In this document: positions 57,018-64,000 of the stretch, one piece after another
How positions within the stretch are numbered: the stretch's first letter is position 1
Layout of the letters: each line of letters starts with the position of its first letter
DNA from: Arthrobacter sp. StoSoilB22
GTDB taxonomy: Bacteria; Actinomycetota; Actinomycetes; Actinomycetales; Micrococcaceae
Assembly (NCBI RefSeq): GCF_019977315.1
Contig: NZ_AP024652.1
Span: 4,154,001 to 4,218,000, forward strand
Direction: 5' to 3'
Length of the DNA stretch: 64,000 bases
Program-made: the position numbers and the translations under genes
The notes under the pieces: model-generated
Told to the model about the DNA's origin: nothing
The model's input: only the letters and a program-made list of their open reading frames with translations
Database searches by the model: none

Positions 57018-58088
57018 CTAGGTGTTCGGTAGCTTCAGGATCTCCCCGAGATCGTACTCAGCGGGCTCTTCCAGCTGCGCGTACGTGCAGCTCCCGGGGG
57101 TCCTGTCCGGCCGCCACCTGCGGAACTGCGTGGTGTGCCGGAACCTGTCCCCCTCCATGTAGTCGTACTTCACTTCGATCACGAGCTCGGGGCGCAGGGG
57201 CACGAAGGAGAAGTCCTTGCCCCCGCTCCAGCGGCTTTGGGCGCCCGGCATGCGTGAACCCCCGGCAGCCTCGTCCTGCTTGGCCCATTCGCCCCACGGG
57301 TGCTGGTCGAGTTCAATCTGATACGGCTCAAGCTCAGCCACCAGGGCCTCGCGCTTGGCCATGGGAAACGATGCCACCACTCCCACGTGATGTAGCCGGC
57401 CGGTGTCGTCGTGCAGGCCAAGCAGCATGGAGCCCACTACTTTCGCGGTCTTGTGCCAGCGGAACCCAGCCACCACACAATCGGCCGTGCGCTCGTGTTT
57501 GGTCTTGAACATCACCCGCTTGTTCGGGAGGTACGCCCCATCCAGTGGTTTGGACAGCACACCATCCAGGCCCGCGCCCTCCAGTTGTACGAACCACTCC
57601 CGCGCCCGTTCCAGATCAGTCACCGCAGGAGTCACATACACAGGCGGCTCGGCCTCGGCGAGCGCACGTTCCAAAATGGCCCGGCGCTCGGAGAACGGCT
57701 TGTCCATGAGGTTCTGATCGCCCAGCGCGAGGATGTCGAACGCAATCATGGACGCCGGGGTCTTCTCTGCGAGCATACGGACGCGGCTGTCGGCGGGGTG
57801 GATCCGCTGCTGGAGCACCTCGAATTCGAGCCGGCCACCCTCGATCAGGACGATTTCGCCGTCAATCACGCATTTGTCCGGCAGGTTCTTCCTGAGGGCA
57901 TCCACCAGCTCCGGGAAGTAGCGGGTCATGGGCTTCTCGTTGCGGCTGCCCAGGACGATCTCGTCGCCGTCCTTGAAGACGATGGTCCGGAAGCCGTCCC
58001 ATTTGGGCTCGTAGTGCCCAACATCGGGGATGGTCGGAACGGATTTGGCGAGCATGGGCGAGACGGGTGGCATCACAGGCAGGTCCAT
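57018..58088 (-). CDS. ATP-dependent DNA ligase (LigC type)
   Basis: A 356-residue ligase. The nucleotidyl-transfer Lys is in motif I EPKWDGFRT (Lys29). Other motifs are SRNEKPMTRY, DGEIVLIEG (III), SMIAFDILAL (IIIa), GLDGVLSKPLDGAY (IV) and VMFKTKHERTADCVV (V). An OB-fold C-terminal domain completes it (SMLLGLHDDTGRLHHVG). The ATG at 58088 is the start. There is no LigD polymerase or nuclease domain, so it matches the actinobacterial LigC group, involved in back-up or base-excision type repair rather than replication. No Ku gene is adjacent. Confidence 0.92.
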   Translation of the reverse strand: MDLPVMPPVSPMLAKSVPTIPDVGHYEPKWDGFRTIVFKDGDEIVLGSRNEKPMTRYFPELVDALRKNLPDKCVIDGEIVLIEGGRLEFEVLQQRIHPADSRVRMLAEKTPASMIAFDILALGDQNLMDKPFSERRAILERALAEAEPPVYVTPAVTDLERAREWFVQLEGAGLDGVLSKPLDGAYLPNKRVMFKTKHERTADCVVAGFRWHKTAKVVGSMLLGLHDDTGRLHHVGVVASFPMAKREALVAELEPYQIELDQHPWGEWAKQDEAAGGSRMPGAQSRWSGGKDFSFVPLRPELVIEVKYDYMEGDRFRHTTQFRRWRPDRTPGSCTYAQLEEPAEYDLGEILKLPNT

Positions 58089-58305
58089 AGACAATGTCTA
58101 CCCGCCGGTGCGCGCCGAAGCTAGTGTTGGCCAGGGATATCTTGGTCGAGCGGCCCAGCGAGTGCCGCCCAGCACCGGCCCCGAAGCCTAAGCGCCAGAA
58201 GCCTACCGCTTAGGCTGAACTACCGCCCGTTACATTAATGTGACTTTACTTTCCGGCTCATGTACCGTCGTAGGGCGACCCATATCTCCGCTGGGCCGCT
58301 TCCGG
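58089..58305. other. Leader region upstream of the c-di-AMP riboswitch
   Basis: No gene is visible. A perfect dyad AGCCTAAGCG ... CGCTTAGGCT (58185-58216, 12-base spacer) may end a transcript or bind a regulator, and ACATTAATGT (about 58234-58243) is a 10-base palindrome in an AT-rich patch likely to contain the promoter. I cannot place -35 and -10 elements with confidence. Confidence 0.45.
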
Positions 58306-58466
58306 ATTGACGCCGAGCTCTGCCGCAATCCGGGATCCGCCAGACCCGCGGCAGAGACGGGGGACCCAGGTTCCCGGGCTTGTTACCCACAAGCCCTTGG
58401 GGTGAAGCCGCCTTGCGCGGCCGGACGGCCTCGTCCGAACCCGACAGCTAACCTCGAAGGCGTTGA
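58306..58466 (+). promoter_or_regulatory. c-di-AMP riboswitch (ydaO/yuaA type)
   Basis: The conserved blocks of this aptamer occur in order: GCCGCAATCCG (about 58322-58332), ACGGGGGACCCA (58357-58368), TTGGGGTGAAGCC (58397-58409) and CGAACCCGACAGCTAACCTC from 58436. GACGCC near 58309 can pair with GGCGTT at 58459-58464 to close the outer stem. The Shine-Dalgarno GAGAGG follows at once, then the ATG at 58479, so the switch can act on translation or transcription. In actinobacteria this class usually controls cell-wall hydrolases and osmotic-stress genes; the ligand c-di-AMP commonly turns expression off. Confidence 0.9.
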
Positions 58467-58478
58467 GAGGCAACCACC

Positions 58479-59801
58479 ATGTCCCCAACCATGGATCAGC
58501 CGCGCCGCGCCCAGACTGAAGGCGAGCGCACCAAGCCAACCGGACGCCGTCGGGCCCAACCCAGCGGATTCCTTGACAACGCGCCGGCAGATTCCGCCGC
58601 CGTCAGCGGAACGTCAAGCACGACGCCGGAACCCGCCACGGCGGCCATGCCCGCCGCGGTGAAACCCACCACGCGTGCGGAAATCCGCGCAGCCGAGCGC
58701 GAGCGTGCTGCCCGGGCCGTACTCGCGCCCGAGGAATCGGCGGCAGCTCCGAAGTCCACCACACCGGGACCTCCTACCGCAGCCATCCCCATCGTTCCGC
58801 CGGCCAGCCAGGAACCCGCCACCACGGCTATTCCAGTAGTGCAGCCTGCAACGCCGGAACCCGCAACTGCGGCCATTCCCGTAGTCACTGCCCGCGATGA
58901 GTCCGCGCGCACGCCGGAACCCACGGAGTCCCCGCGCAAGGACGCTGAGTCCCCGCGCGGCAAGTCTCCGGCTCAGGTGGCCGCAGCCGCTACAGCCTCA
59001 GCATCCTTGGCAAGCCGCCGGGACGTTCGAAAGCCGGCCGCTGCGCCCACCACCAAGTCCGGTTTTGGCGCCACATCCTCGTTCGGCCGTGAGCCGTTCG
59101 GCCGCGAACCACAGGCCGCCCTGCGCAAGGCGGCTTCGGTCAAACACATGAGCCAGCGCATGGCCGTGGTGGCGGGGGCCCTTGGCCTCGTGCTGACAGC
59201 CGGCGCTTTGGGGCCGGCCCTTGAACTTCCGTTCTTCGGCCAGGAAACCCCGTCGCAGGAAGCCGGCGGGGGCGAAGGCCGCACCTCGGGTTCGGCATCG
59301 CCCGGGCCCAAGGCTTCCTACACCACGGCGTCATCACCTTCGGCCTCCACGCCATCCACAGCATCAGGGGCAACGGCTTCCTCCGAGGCCGGCCAGCCCG
59401 CGACGATCGCGGAGGCACCCGGGGCGGTGTCGCCGTCGTCGACTCCCACCCCACAGGTTTCGCTCGCGGACCCGGTATGGGTTCCGTCAGCGGGCTCGTC
59501 CGCAGTCCCGGCAGTTCCTGGCGCCACCAGCCCGGCACCCACCCAGCCGGCCCCCGCGCCGAGCGATGTGCCGCCCTCGGACACCATCACTACACCGCCT
59601 GCGCCGACGCCAACGGGCACTCCCACACCGACCCCGACTCCCACAGGAACTGCGACTCCCACACCGACTCCAACGCCGACGGATACTGCAACGCCGACGT
59701 CCAAGCCGAAACCGGGCAAGCCGACCGCTGCCTCAGCACCGCAGCCCAGTGAATCGGCACTTCAGGACATCCTCGATGCCGCACAGAAGGTATTCGGTTG
59801 A
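58479..59801 (+). CDS. Uncharacterised Pro/Thr/Ala-rich single-pass membrane protein under c-di-AMP riboswitch
   Basis: A 440-residue protein I do not recognise as any characterised family. The first about 225 residues are Pro/Ala/Thr-rich with a degenerate repeat (PEPATAAIPVV, PGPPTAAIPIV, QEPATTAIPVV) and a basic stretch ending MSQRM. One hydrophobic helix follows (residues about 228-248). The outside half is Ser/Pro/Thr-rich, with a run of PTPTPT-type dipeptides near 375-405 that resembles a glycosylated wall-spanning linker. It ends in a short amphipathic helix (SALQDILDAAQKVFG). No peptidase, LysM or NlpC domain is present, although genes behind this riboswitch usually encode wall hydrolases. 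Mostly disordered; the role is unknown, perhaps envelope sensing or anchoring. Confidence 0.8.
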   Translation: MSPTMDQPRRAQTEGERTKPTGRRRAQPSGFLDNAPADSAAVSGTSSTTPEPATAAMPAAVKPTTRAEIRAAERERAARAVLAPEESAAAPKSTTPGPPTAAIPIVPPASQEPATTAIPVVQPATPEPATAAIPVVTARDESARTPEPTESPRKDAESPRGKSPAQVAAAATASASLASRRDVRKPAAAPTTKSGFGATSSFGREPFGREPQAALRKAASVKHMSQRMAVVAGALGLVLTAGALGPALELPFFGQETPSQEAGGGEGRTSGSASPGPKASYTTASSPSASTPSTASGATASSEAGQPATIAEAPGAVSPSSTPTPQVSLADPVWVPSAGSSAVPAVPGATSPAPTQPAPAPSDVPPSDTITTPPAPTPTGTPTPTPTPTGTATPTPTPTPTDTATPTSKPKPGKPTAASAPQPSESALQDILDAAQKVFG

Positions 59802-59966
59802 GCACCCGCCTGCCGCGTACGTCCACCCATGCGGGGTGGCATAGCCGGTACTGCAGCAGCAGCCGGACTGCCACGTTCCGTCGGCGGATGGGGCGCTGGA
59901 GCTGCCAGCGTTTGCGGCGCTCGTAAGGCAACACCGCATACTTCGTACTTACAAGGGGAAGCAGGC

Positions 59967-61181
59967 TCAGATCCGTGGCCGTACTGCCCAACGCCTGGCC
60001 TTCAGGGCCGCATGTAACTCGAGCCGGATCGCGCCACTCAACGGATCAGCACCGATGAGCTGGCGGATCCGGCCGAGCCTGTTGTAGATGCTGCTCCTGT
60101 GGAGATGAAGTTTGGCGGCGACGTCCTGAACCGAGCCGTCATTGTCATAGAGCAATTCAAGGACGGGCAGGAGTTCGCCGTTTTTGTCGTGGTCCTCGAG
60201 TGCCCTGAAATGCACAGATCCCGTGTCATCCCAACCGCCCGGTGCTACCAAACGATCGAACAGCTGGTACACGCCAACAGTTCGGCTGTCCACGAGCTCA
60301 CCCAAAGGGAGGTCTACTGCGGCCGCTTGGGCAGCAACCTTCGCTTGCCGGTACGCACCGGACAGCTGCCGGATAACTTGGAATGGTTCGCTGATCCCCA
60401 AGATTACCCTGTCCACTTTGCGGCCTGCGCGTTTGGCGAGCTCCAGTTGATAGTGCACCAAAACCTGGGCATGGTCCGCCCGGCCGCCCGACTCGCGGAA
60501 CAACACAACGGAATGCGTCTCCGTTCCGGCGCTGAACAACGCGGCGTTCACGCCAATGGTGGACTGCAGCGCGGCAGATCGATGCGTCAGGGTAGCTGCA
60601 ATGGGATCGACGTCGGACCTCGCACCATAGGGGTCGAGGATAGTCACCAGCTGCCACGGACCGCGGCCCTGGATTTCCTTCCAACCCGCGACGGCGGCCA
60701 CAGCGTTGGATTCGCCGCCGCAGGCTGACAGAAACTCCTGTTCACGCCGTCGCCGGAACTCCGATTCAGCCGTGTTGGAATCAAGGAGCAAGCCCGCCAG
60801 CAGGTCCAGCTCGTCCCGCACGCCTGGCAGTTCGGCGAGTATCGCCGTCGCGCTCTGTTCTTCAAGGTCAAGCTGCACCCACAAGTACCCCACGCGGAAA
60901 CCGCGCACCAGCAAGGGGACACAGACGCGGCCCAACATGCCCAGTTCGTCGTTGGCTGGAACCACCACGGGTCGCACCGCCGTAGCAATGCCGTGAGCGA
61001 GCTGCCATGCGCTGACGTCGCTGGGTACCCGCTTGCTCAGGAGGAAGTTCACGCGGACGCGGTCGGCGTGGGACTGGTTGGAGCTGTAGGCGAGGAGAAC
61101 GCCGTCGAGGTCTTCCAGGGAGAGCCCGCGGCCCAGCTTCAAAGCCACCCGTTCAACGATCTGTTCCACGTCCTGCTGCAT
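59967..61181 (-). CDS. PucR/CdaR-type regulator, probable activator of ald (AdeR-like)
   Basis: A 404-residue regulator with an N-terminal sensor-like region, a GGDEF-like middle and a C-terminal PucR HTH_30 (VQDVAAKLHLHRSSIYNRLGRI). It is divergent from alanine dehydrogenase. The B. subtilis ald activator AdeR has the same family and role, so alanine-responsive activation of ald is the natural inference. The open frame begins at 61301 (with GAGG upstream), but the ATG at 61181 matches the expected family start (QQDVEQIVERVALKLGRG). The longer form would cover the palindrome in the promoter region. Confidence 0.87.
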   Translation of the reverse strand: MQQDVEQIVERVALKLGRGLSLEDLDGVLLAYSSNQSHADRVRVNFLLSKRVPSDVSAWQLAHGIATAVRPVVVPANDELGMLGRVCVPLLVRGFRVGYLWVQLDLEEQSATAILAELPGVRDELDLLAGLLLDSNTAESEFRRRREQEFLSACGGESNAVAAVAGWKEIQGRGPWQLVTILDPYGARSDVDPIAATLTHRSAALQSTIGVNAALFSAGTETHSVVLFRESGGRADHAQVLVHYQLELAKRAGRKVDRVILGISEPFQVIRQLSGAYRQAKVAAQAAAVDLPLGELVDSRTVGVYQLFDRLVAPGGWDDTGSVHFRALEDHDKNGELLPVLELLYDNDGSVQDVAAKLHLHRSSIYNRLGRIRQLIGADPLSGAIRLELHAALKARRWAVRPRI

Positions 61182-61225
61182 CGGAAAAGCGTACCAACAG
61201 CAGGCGACACTTGACGCTTCAGTGC

Positions 61226-61239
61226 TCGACAAATGTCGA
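61226..61239. promoter_or_regulatory. Candidate operator between ald and its regulator
   Basis: TCGACA-AA-TGTCGA is a perfect dyad in the 209-base divergent region, 150 bases before the ald start. It is a plausible binding site for the PucR-type protein. A TTGACG box lies just left of it at 61211-61216. Confidence 0.45.
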
Positions 61240-61390
61240 ACTTGCCCGGCTAGGATCCTTGTATCCACAGGGTTTTCCTGTGCGGGCAGTTCTTGCTCCA
61301 TGTCGCCTGCCTCACAGCCGGATTTATTCTGGAATCACAGCCCGCAACACATTTTTCGGCCGAAGAGGCCGCTAACGATGGAGCCCACAG

Positions 61391-62509
61391 ATGATCATCG
61401 GTGTCCCCAAAGAAATCAAGAACAACGAGTTCCGCGTAGCCATCACGGCTGCCGGCGTCCACGAGTTCCGCACCCACGGACACTCCGTTCTGGTTGAACG
61501 CGGCGCAGGCCTCGGCTCGGGCATCACCGACGAGGAATACTCGATCGCCGGCGCAGAAATCGTCAACGAAGCCGACGACGTCTGGGCCCGCGCGGACATG
61601 GTCATGAAGGTCAAAGAACCCATCGCGGCCGAGTACCACCGCTTCCGCAAGGGCCTCATCCTCTTCACCTACCTCCACCTCGCCGCAGAGCCCGAGCTCA
61701 CCGCCGAGCTCATCAACTCCGGCGTCACGGCCATCGCCTATGAAACCGTTCAGGAGGGCCGCACGCTTCCGCTGCTCGCCCCGATGTCCGAGGTCGCAGG
61801 GCGCCTGTCCGTAGTGGTCGGCGCTTCCTCCCTCATGGCTCCGGCCGGTGGCAAGGGTGTCCTCCTGGGCGGCGTACCGGGTGTGCGCCCGGCCAAGGTT
61901 GTTGTCCTCGGCGCCGGCGTTGCGGGAACCAACGCCGCCGCCATGGCGCTGGGCCTCGGTGCTGATGTCACCATCATGGACATCAACATCAACCGGCTGC
62001 GCGAACTCGACGCCCTCTACCAGGGCCGCCTGAAGACCGTTGCCTCCAACGCCTACGAGATCGAGAAGTCAGTCATCGACGCAGATCTCGTGATCGGCTC
62101 CGTCCTGATCCCCGGCGCCAAGGCACCCAAGCTGGTCACCAACGACCTCGTTGCCCGCATGAAGCCGGGCTCGGTTCTTGTGGACATCGCCGTTGACCAG
62201 GGCGGCTGCTTCGAGGACACGCACCCCACCACCCACCAGGAACCGACGTACAAGGTCCACAACTCGATCTTCTACTGCGTTGCCAACATGCCTGGCGCCG
62301 TTCCGAACACCTCCACGTACGCACTGACCAACGTCACCCTGCGCTACGCCGTGGCATTGGCCAACCTGGGCGTCAAGGCCGCCTTCGACCGCGATCCCGC
62401 GCTCGCCGCCGGCCTCAACATCGCTGCAGGCCACGTGGCACACCACTCCGTTTCCGAGGCACACAACCTGCCGCTGGTGACGGACTGGCACAGCCTGGTC
62501 ACCGCATAG
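61391..62509 (+). CDS. ald: Alanine dehydrogenase
   Basis: A 372-residue NAD-dependent enzyme interconverting L-alanine and pyruvate plus ammonia (EC 1.4.1.1). MIIGVPKEIKNNEFRVAIT is the family start, followed by MVMKVKEPIAAEY (substrate Lys), LFTYLHLAAEPELT (catalytic His), the NAD-binding VVVLGAGVAGTNAAAMALGLGA-type segment, and SVLVDIAVDQGGCFEDT. GGAG lies about ten bases before the ATG. It releases ammonia and pyruvate during growth on alanine and links with the CycA-type permease and the pyruvate-yielding sdaA route. Confidence 0.96.
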   Translation: MIIGVPKEIKNNEFRVAITAAGVHEFRTHGHSVLVERGAGLGSGITDEEYSIAGAEIVNEADDVWARADMVMKVKEPIAAEYHRFRKGLILFTYLHLAAEPELTAELINSGVTAIAYETVQEGRTLPLLAPMSEVAGRLSVVVGASSLMAPAGGKGVLLGGVPGVRPAKVVVLGAGVAGTNAAAMALGLGADVTIMDININRLRELDALYQGRLKTVASNAYEIEKSVIDADLVIGSVLIPGAKAPKLVTNDLVARMKPGSVLVDIAVDQGGCFEDTHPTTHQEPTYKVHNSIFYCVANMPGAVPNTSTYALTNVTLRYAVALANLGVKAAFDRDPALAAGLNIAAGHVAHHSVSEAHNLPLVTDWHSLVTA

Positions 62510-63326
62510 CGAAGCCTTCGCGGCGACAGAAACTCGTCCCTGGCCCGCTGTTCCGTTGCTGCCCAGCAACGGAACAGCGGGCTTCCGACGTTTCAGCGCG
62601 AAAAGTTCCGATGGGTGTCTCCACCTCAAGCTGCAGCACAGGCTCCTGGATGCCCAGCTTGTGGAGAAGCAGGCGAGTGCGTGTCTCCCCCACTGACTCG
62701 GATCGCTTATCCATTGCGGCGAGAACCTGACGCAGCCGCCGCGCACCCCGCGTGATCCTGCCGCTGTCCAGAAAATGTTGCAGGATTCCCGGATCAGCAC
62801 CCCGCCTGAGGGCCTGGTCCGCGATAACCACGGCTGCTTCGAACGCCAACGTTCTCGCACAGTCGATCACTGTCCGTTCAAGGCTCGTGACTCTGACCCG
62901 GCCTCCCCACGGCGCGGGCACTTCCGTGATTTCTTCCGGGTTCAACGGCCCACCGTGGGCAACCACATCCGCACCCGAACTTGCCTGGGCAGGAGAGAAT
63001 GGCGTGGTGACATGCACTTGAGGGCCACCTTCCCAGTCAGGGCACCCATGGAGCCGGGCAGCACTCAGGTGGCTATACGTTGCTTGGCCCGACGTGCTGC
63101 ACGCCTGGGCCTGAATACGGAGTATCTCCCGTTCCCAGGGCTTGCGACGACGCCAGTCAACTGTCCGGACATAGGCACCGCGCCTCAGCCTCAGGAGCTT
63201 CCCCGAACGCACTCCTGCGGTCAGCGCGCGGTCCCCCAGGCCCGTGGCCGCAAGCTCGGGGGTTGAGGCAACAAGGGTGGACGGCCAATGCTCAGCGAGA
63301 AGGGCATCAAGCTTTGGTGATTGCAT
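62499..63326 (-). pseudogene. AbiEi-type antitoxin-domain/endonuclease-like gene, 3' truncated
   Basis: A 275-residue frame. The N-terminal half matches actinobacterial proteins annotated as type IV toxin-antitoxin AbiEi-like (GDRALTAGVRSGKLLRLRRGAYV, then SHLSAARLHGCP, and SLERTVIDCARTLAFEAAVV). Relatives continue after VETPIGTFRA with a DUF559-like nuclease core of about 60-80 residues (acidic active-site strands and EFDG-type motifs). Here, from about 62600, the frame runs into the REP-like palindrome (ARCSVAGQQRN and onward), which is not protein-like, and it ends antisense to the last 11 bases of ald. The nuclease domain is missing. The start ATG at 63326 is normal. Confidence 0.75.
62543..62582. 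repeat. REP-like palindrome, copy B
   Basis: Perfect 19-bp arms: GCCCGCTGTTCCGTTGCTG and its complement, with a CC spacer. It lies 34 bases past the ald stop codon, where it can serve as ald terminator, and forms the right edge of the truncated AbiEi-type gene. Confidence 0.9.
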
Positions 63327-63454: not shown

Positions 63455-64000
63455 TTAGGGCCTCGACGGGAGGGACGGAATCAGCTGCGATGGAACCGGC
63501 ACAGGAACACCCGAGGGGCCAAGCTTTGAGGGATCGATCGTGGAGGGGTCGATCTCCGGCGGGGTCACGGGCAACACCGGCGGCGTGGGGATGACGCCGT
63601 TTCCGGGCTCCTGGTGCGACGGCGCGTTGGGGGTACGTTGCGATGGTTCGCCCCCGGGCTGCGGCTGGGGTTCGGGAACAACAGGACTGACGGGTGCCGA
63701 CGGAGCAGGCTGGGGTTGGACAGTGGCAGAACCTTGCTGCGGCACGTCCGGAGCAGGCACCTGCTGCTCGGGGGTGGTGCCAGCGGGCGCATCGGGTTGG
63801 GGAGCGCTGCCCGAACCCGGGTTCAGTTGTGACACCACCGAACCGATTGCTGCTCCAAGATGCTGGAAAGCGCCCGGCAGGCCGCCCTCCGATGCGACGG
63901 CAGCGGTAGCCCCGCCTGCCAAGGACACGGCAACGGCAAGGCCCGCGATGGCGGCGCGGCGCTTCTTACGACGACGTGCAGCGAGTTCGTCCACAGGAGC
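63455..64000 (-). CDS. Pro/Gln-rich single-pass membrane protein, 5' end may be outside the window
   Basis: At least 179 residues from a GTG at 63994. The frame stays open to the window edge (two more codons), so this may be the C-terminal part of a longer protein. It begins with a very basic patch (AARRRKKRRAA), one hydrophobic helix (AIAGLAVAVSLAGGATAAVA) and a short amphipathic stretch (LPGAFQHLGAAIGSVVSQL). The rest is Pro/Gln/Ala/Ser-rich low complexity. This is the layout of an inside-basic signal anchor with an extracellular disordered tail. It resembles the riboswitch-controlled protein in style only. The function is unknown; anti-sigma-like proteins can look like this at their C-terminus. 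Confidence 0.65.
   Translation of the reverse strand, partial: APVDELAARRRKKRRAAIAGLAVAVSLAGGATAAVASEGGLPGAFQHLGAAIGSVVSQLNPGSGSAPQPDAPAGTTPEQQVPAPDVPQQGSATVQPQPAPSAPVSPVVPEPQPQPGGEPSQRTPNAPSHQEPGNGVIPTPPVLPVTPPEIDPSTIDPSKLGPSGVPVPVPSQLIPSLPSRP

Follow-up and report, generated by a model that had tools for sequence, protein, structure and literature searches.

Cyclic di-AMP riboswitches of the ydaO/yuaA family (RF00379) lie directly before the start codons of S. coelicolor rpfA and C. glutamicum nlpC. In one published account, almost all actinobacterial genes with such riboswitches are described as cell-wall related (PMC9960051). The same account classes the nlpC riboswitch as an OFF switch, with translation as its most likely level of action, and calls the mechanism open (PMC9960051); for rpfA, action via transcription termination is reported (PMC10117811). 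The window analysed here, a stretch of 64,000 nucleotides from Arthrobacter sp. StoSoilB22, holds a member of the same RNA family, also directly before a start codon. It differs from the rpfA and nlpC switches in that the controlled protein has no hydrolase domain and in that P2 carries an insertion, the 5′ part of which pairs upstream of P1. Proteins matching NF052397 (aggregation-promoting factor (APF) C-terminal-like domain; e.g. L148, in the same genome) have the riboswitch position, the N-terminus MSxxxDQ.R...RHR and the juxtamembrane/membrane segment of the window protein. Unlike these, the window protein has no APF-like domain, its inside part is about 225 instead of about 45 residues long, and a PT-rich linker and LPFFG follow the membrane segment. 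A sister clade with the N-terminus MSRSLDQ (L113 in G016, L117 in G133) resembles the window clade in riboswitch, N-terminus and LPFFG-type core, but five of its eight members keep an APF-like domain with a 33-residue deletion. Overall, we consider it probable that a riboswitch of the wall-hydrolase class controls here the translation of a protein descended from an APF-domain (lysozyme-like) wall enzyme, with the domain lost.

The riboswitch was assessed by cmscan of the whole window, in which RF00379 was the sole Rfam match above threshold (70.7 bits against a gathering threshold of 38 bits), and the c-di-AMP riboswitch named in the first-pass annotation thus stands. It is the best-scoring of five such riboswitches in the genome (4.55 Mb, one contig); with a single diadenylate-cyclase (DAC) domain encoded in the genome, the bacterium probably makes c-di-AMP. 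The Rfam match stops 2 nt 5′ of the ATG of a 440-aa open reading frame (Table 1). The possibility that the aptamer serves a different downstream gene, raised in the same annotation, is ruled out by the next gene (59967–61301), which lies on the opposite strand. That the closing stem abuts the Shine-Dalgarno sequence was also seen correctly (Table 1), and GAGAGG is found 5–10 nt 5′ of the start in 64 of the 66 riboswitch leaders examined. The Rfam alignment puts the start of P1 at 58338, within the P2 insertion, about 30 nt downstream of the conserved P1. The aptamer start originally given as 58306 fits better than the 5′ edge of the Rfam match, since P1 begins at 58307 by the pairing that 33 distinct orthologous leaders have in common. 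From these leaders, the Rfam 5′ edge of the window riboswitch seems out of register, and the RF00379 family alignments of actinomycete members may be so as well.

Table 1. Positions of leader and protein features in the window (position 1 is the first letter of the stretch).
Feature	Position	Strand	Basis or remark
c-di-AMP riboswitch, RF00379 as Rfam-aligned	58328–58476	+	70.7 bits, E 2.2e-14
P1 extension, 5′ strand (predicted)	58298–58302	+	GCUUC would pair with GAGGC 58467–58471 (Shine-Dalgarno); five pairs
Proposed anti-P1 hairpin, 5′ arm (UUCCGGAUUG)	58300–58309	+	pairs with 58326–58335; covariation, arm-swap test
P1, 5′ strand (UUGACGCC)	58307–58314	+	overlaps 5′ arm of the anti-P1 hairpin at 58307–58309
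P2, 5′ strand (CUCUGCCGC)	58318–58326	+	sits in the loop of the anti-P1 hairpin
Proposed anti-P1 hairpin, 3′ arm (CAAUCCGGGA)	58326–58335	+	covariation, arm-swap test
P2, 3′ strand (GCGGCAGAG)	58348–58356	+	pairing conserved in leaders
P1, 3′ strand (GGCGUUGA)	58459–58466	+	pairing conserved in leaders
Shine-Dalgarno sequence GAGAGG	58465–58470	+	overlaps P1 end; 8 nt 5′ of ATG at 58479
Riboswitch-controlled gene, 440 aa	58479–59801	+	ORF list; median pairwise dN/dS 0.26 among 32 orthologues
Conserved N-terminal segment MSPTMDQPRR...GRRRA	58479–58568	+	alignment; colinear with N-terminus of APF-domain paralogues
Inside repeat region, four TAAIP-type cores	58626–58883	+	orthologue comparison
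Short predicted cytosolic helix, aa 66–82 (RAEIRAAERERAARA region)	58674–58724	+	AlphaFold2; conserved
Conserved juxtamembrane and hydrophobic core, aa 207–259, ending LPFFG	59097–59255	+	profile; dN/dS 0.15 for aa 205–262
PT-rich linker, presumably extracytoplasmic	59265–59738	+	side inferred from positive charges preceding the hydrophobic segment
C-terminal predicted helix, aa 425–439 (ALQDILDAAQKVF)	59751–59795	+	AlphaFold2; where paralogues have the APF-like domain

The 440-aa protein had no match in Pfam at E≤0.1 or in NCBIfam at E≤1. As it stands, it thus carries no recognised hydrolase, transporter or Rpf domain, as the first-pass annotation had maintained, and none of the hydrolytic domains of a wall-hydrolase regulon (NlpC/P60, M23, Rpf, LysM-linked, APF-like) was found in it. 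The AlphaFold2 model, computed with eight homologues, had a mean pLDDT of 48.1, with helices only at residues 66–82, 213–241 (hydrophobic) and 425–439. This bears out the description as a disordered membrane protein with one membrane-type helix, to which two further short helices have to be added. The degenerate inside repeat is present as four cores of the form T-A/T-A-I/M-P at residues 54, 100, 115 and 130, the number of TAAIP motifs ranging from 2 to 4 across the seven orthologues compared, and the PT-rich outer segment is seen in the translated frame. A phospho-threonine reading of the TAAIP motif would rest on kinase motifs. The one hydrophobic helix has positive charges before it and, by eye, a possible cleavage site after ..G[QP]A; a single-pass membrane protein is plausible, with signal-peptidase cleavage after the hydrophobic segment as the alternative.

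Homologues were searched with the whole protein and with a profile (A3) of 53 columns spanning the juxtamembrane and membrane segment. The whole protein matched 11 of 59 relatives at E≤0.001, some on low-complexity sequence only. The profile matched 49 of 150 same-genus genomes at the same threshold, 42 of them strongly (E≤3.2e-21) and seven weakly; family-wide (197 genomes) there were four matches: the own genome, two same-genus genomes strongly, and one genome of another genus at E 6.8e-4. The named records among 33 loci are Arthrobacter and Paenarthrobacter. By their N-termini the 42 strong homologues form two clades, 34 window-like (MSPT/IM) and eight sister (MSRSL) genes, present in 34 and 8 genomes, respectively, and never together in one genome. 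A PucR-type gene comes next in 29 of the 34 window-clade loci (the window itself included) and in none of the seven testable sister-clade loci. The search for homologues sharing riboswitch and protein, which had been put forward with the earlier reading, returned both in 42 of 42 clade members; the 3′ end of the RF00379 match ranges from 4 nt ahead of the start codon to 1 nt within it (L144–L147 and L149–L152 were left out of the Rfam scan of the loci).

Among 32 window-clade orthologues, the median pairwise dN/dS was 0.26 over the full length (382 pairs) and 0.15 over residues 205–262 (349 pairs), L069, L070 and pairs with dS outside 0.15–1.5 being left out; constraint is weaker over the C-terminal helix region (0.35). 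These ratios point to a working gene, the work of which is not catalysis by a known domain, and by this measure what remains of the protein is under purifying selection. In principle, the riboswitch and the frame could persist passively as a decaying pseudogene, as might be read from the lost domain, the low-complexity sequence and the altered C-terminal frames in two of the 34 window-clade genes (L069, L070). This is highly improbable given the constraint on the protein and above all on its membrane core; moreover, the aptamer core, Shine-Dalgarno sequence and start codon are intact across the clade.

The profile also matches an APF-domain paralogue (E 2.6e-4 in the own genome and 1.3e-11 in G133), and the weaker matches, in the own and in other genomes, fall just behind other c-di-AMP riboswitches. 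The match in the own genome (815132–815242) lies behind the riboswitch at 815323–815479 and belongs to a 287-aa protein, the C-terminus of which matches NF052397 with 118.4 bits; the window protein has no match to this model at E≤1 (curated cut-off 40 bits). Pfam gave no match to the APF-like domain, for which NCBIfam has a model, and a PDB sequence search with the paralogue gave only a low-complexity match (E 0.89). Of 21 such APF genes, 20 encode a protein with NWY at its C-terminus, and the frame of the remaining one (L129) is broken; the own-genome gene alone was scored with NF052397. In L129 (G154:C1:1920200–1922000) the frame ends after 27 codons in this assembly, so that it is either a second breaking riboswitch-controlled gene or a sequencing error. 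The N-termini of the window protein and the APF paralogues are colinear (MS..DQ.R...RHR...VLK.AA....RM.VVAG).

A tree of the core (59 rows, 90 columns) was built without L070, L115 and L119 (no motif match) and L129 (27-aa frame); a first run had omitted 13 rows. The window clade (32 rows) was recovered at 100/99, and together with the sister clade (seven rows) and the intact tandem gene of G133 (L117) it is separated from the 19 remaining intact genes with a support of 99/95. In five of the eight sister-clade proteins the APF-like domain is retained, less its GAYG-containing middle, which an identical 33-residue gap removes. Four of the five are also without the glutamate of the W..ESNW motif, which is presumably catalytic, as in lysozyme-like families; the protein of G133 keeps one. 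On NF052397 the L113 domain with this gap reaches 30.1 bits, below the 40-bit cut-off, and it is predicted to fold (mean pLDDT 82.2); Foldseek with this model gave no PDB match at E≤0.001. Among the other three members, L119 has an out-of-frame remnant (E 0.001), in L124 none was detected and L123 is cut by the contig end. In G133 (L117:709–3362) an intact APF-domain gene and one with the 33-residue deletion lie in tandem behind separate c-di-AMP riboswitches, an arrangement that reads as a duplication with one copy decaying. A tblastn search with the intact and gapped APF-like domains against the loci of the 34 window-clade genes and the window gave no convincing remnant (best in the window, E 0.61), and a frame-shifted hydrolase domain beyond the stop codon was rejected on this ground.

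On this comparison, the window gene most likely descends from a wall-hydrolase gene by loss of the domain, and stepwise loss after duplication would be the most economical reading. The opposite direction, in which the domain-less protein is old and always non-enzymatic and the sister clade gained an APF fragment by fusion, draws on the join of the window and sister clades alone, which at 92/83 and about 90 columns is below starred support. It also draws on the riboswitch tree, in which the sister clade groups with intact APF genes, the window clade does not fall inside these, and its closest gene class is left open. Such a gain is improbable, because five members share an identical deletion within the domain and L119 has its remnant, which argues for decay; furthermore, the intact tandem gene of G133 stands at the base of both clades. 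If domain loss is correct, the regulatory input was kept while the output protein turned from enzyme to non-enzyme, in a natural series.

How the riboswitch acts was considered from the leader and its relatives. No terminator-like site was found on the + strand of 58080–59980, and an intrinsic terminator as expression platform was rejected for this stretch. As P1 overlaps the Shine-Dalgarno sequence and the + strand holds no terminator, closure of P1 by c-di-AMP should hide the Shine-Dalgarno sequence, which suggests that the window leader is a translational OFF switch. Binding of c-di-AMP would close P1, which runs into the Shine-Dalgarno sequence, and translation would stop; without c-di-AMP, a 5′ hairpin would capture the 5′ strand of either helix, P1 and P2, so that ribosomes could load. 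This would agree with the published view of the nlpC switch (PMC9960051) and differ from the termination reported for rpfA (PMC10117811).

The hairpin (58300–58309/58326–58335) has strands in common with P1 and P2 and would exclude both. Within the window clade it is 95.5% paired, with a covariation score of 0.196 against 0.126 (sd 0.011) for shuffled alignments and none of 500 shuffles as high; pair counts are weaker there, the three pairs changed on both sides being reached by 29 of 500 shuffles and the number of pair types by 281. P1, P2 and the P1 extension pair in 98.1% of cells in the 33 distinct leaders of this clade, and the extension in 33 of 33, in both cases without covariation, which is uninformative on these helices since they hardly vary there. 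A second alignment (A5) holds 38 hand-chosen leaders of the genus, taken from the window clade (8 of 34), the sister clade (7 of 8), the intact APF genes (16 of 21) and elsewhere (7). In it, nine of the ten hairpin pairs are changed on both sides, one pair is unpaired in 23 of the 38, and the score is 0.371 against 0.129 shuffled (sd 0.017), with at most 0.149 when the arms are slid and 0 of 500 shuffles as high, numbers that, like those of the clade, are not probabilities because related rows inflate such tests. The extension is paired in 74.7% of cells in these 38, and P1, P2 and extension score 0.108 against 0.076 shuffled, weaker than the hairpin.

Arm-swap tests were performed on leaders picked by eye (24, of which L022 was dropped for having no match and 23 were used). 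The own arms gave −16.4 versus −10.8 kcal/mol for swapped arms in 12 riboswitches of the genus, and −19.7 versus −13.1 kcal/mol in 11 from other actinomycetes, with none of 5000 permutations as low in either set. Five of a further 26 loci entered this test; in many of the remaining ones the P2 loop is too short to accommodate the hairpin, which is therefore not a feature of the whole phylum. By these alignments, the 5′ hairpin co-varies in the genus and in selected other actinomycetes.

Free folding favours the P1 state over the hairpin state by 6.5 kcal/mol, and the predicted hairpin state still has the Shine-Dalgarno sequence locally paired; thermodynamic folding alone, for these two reasons, does not display the ON state. 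Ligand or co-transcriptional kinetics would need to supply what the folding energies do not. Free folding also lets P2 displace the hairpin once the transcript reaches 58360. This, together with the published data on rpfA (PMC10117811), could mean that the hairpin is only a peripheral helix or co-transcriptional folding aid and that control is exerted by transcription attenuation, the mode reported for that gene. This reading is the less likely one but carries appreciable weight; it sits badly with the + strand that is free of terminator-like sites, the gap of only 8 nt between the Shine-Dalgarno sequence and ATG, the overlap of P1 with the former, and the C. glutamicum data, which favour translation (PMC9960051). 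Taken together, the series from intact domain through 33-residue deletion to no domain and the leader comparison lead us to propose that the riboswitch outlived the enzyme, a duplicated wall hydrolase having become a non-enzymatic envelope protein that answers to the original second messenger, and that in many actinomycete c-di-AMP riboswitches a 5′ anti-P1 hairpin competes with a Shine-Dalgarno-covering P1; this combined proposal is tentative and, in our estimate, slightly short of an even chance. If true, the co-varying hairpin would settle how actinomycete c-di-AMP riboswitches act on translation. Since changing a few bases would suffice to disrupt the hairpin and to restore it, the mechanistic question becomes testable in a reporter. 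A literature search found no published account of an anti-P1 hairpin or of a domain-loss series with a kept riboswitch; key older work lies outside this search, so novelty of the hairpin is not claimed.

The function of the protein is the least certain step. The other four riboswitches of the genome precede M23, NlpC/P60 (two) and APF-domain proteins. The product would span the wall and, itself non-catalytic, assist the hydrolases that share its signal by anchoring, positioning or restraining them, and it would be made at low c-di-AMP; a wall-spanning PT linker with a membrane segment would fit anchoring or positioning. An accessory of wall remodelling, co-made with hydrolases of the same signal, is what we infer as most likely. 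The first-pass annotation had proposed a new type of c-di-AMP target, perhaps an envelope-stress or turgor sensor, the disordered inside tail of which would relay to cytoplasmic partners. The long conserved inside part (220 aa) with its varying TAAIP motifs (2 to 4) and conserved helix 66–82, the single hydrophobic segment and the wall-spanning PT linker would suit such a sensor. A new type of target is not supported, as in its N-terminus and membrane segment the protein falls with riboswitch-controlled APF/lysozyme-like proteins and the sister clade has the domain half-deleted. The sensor is an improbable reading: Pfam and NCBIfam gave no domain with a sensory or signalling role, the locus has neither a kinase gene nor a sigma/anti-sigma gene as a neighbour, and descent accounts for the riboswitch without a sensor. 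The adjoining genes encode an ATP-dependent DNA ligase upstream (other strand) and, downstream, a PucR-family regulator (other strand) and then alanine dehydrogenase, and offer no signalling partner.

Further along the window, an AbiEi-type antitoxin-like regulator (62499–63326, − strand; PF13338, 27.3 bits) overlaps the end of the alanine dehydrogenase gene by a few bases. The product of 63455–63994 (− strand) is another small disordered membrane protein near the riboswitch gene, with 179 aa, one hydrophobic segment, a proline-rich outer part and only sub-threshold matches (Rv2743c, CwsA).

Among other riboswitch genes, M23 domains are found in L002 and L006 and NlpC/P60 in L003, L005 and L028 (in L026 below cut-off), while L031 has no hydrolytic domain. 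GH16 domains occur in L010 and L020, where the riboswitch stands directly before the GH16 protein (L010:1634–2764 in G011 and L020:1638–2756 in G026, same genus; PF00722, E 3.2e-10 and 7.3e-11), and L014 and L029 resemble these loci by eye. GH16 is an unusual target for this riboswitch class. That the GH16 riboswitch gene of other genomes occupies the locus of the window was rejected, as it lies about 90–110 kb from the PucR gene. At G000:C1:1067954–1069313 (L002, L003), an M23 peptidase gene and an NlpC/P60 gene each follow a c-di-AMP riboswitch; the two riboswitches are separated by about 1 kb, and the spacing of this pair recurs in many relatives.
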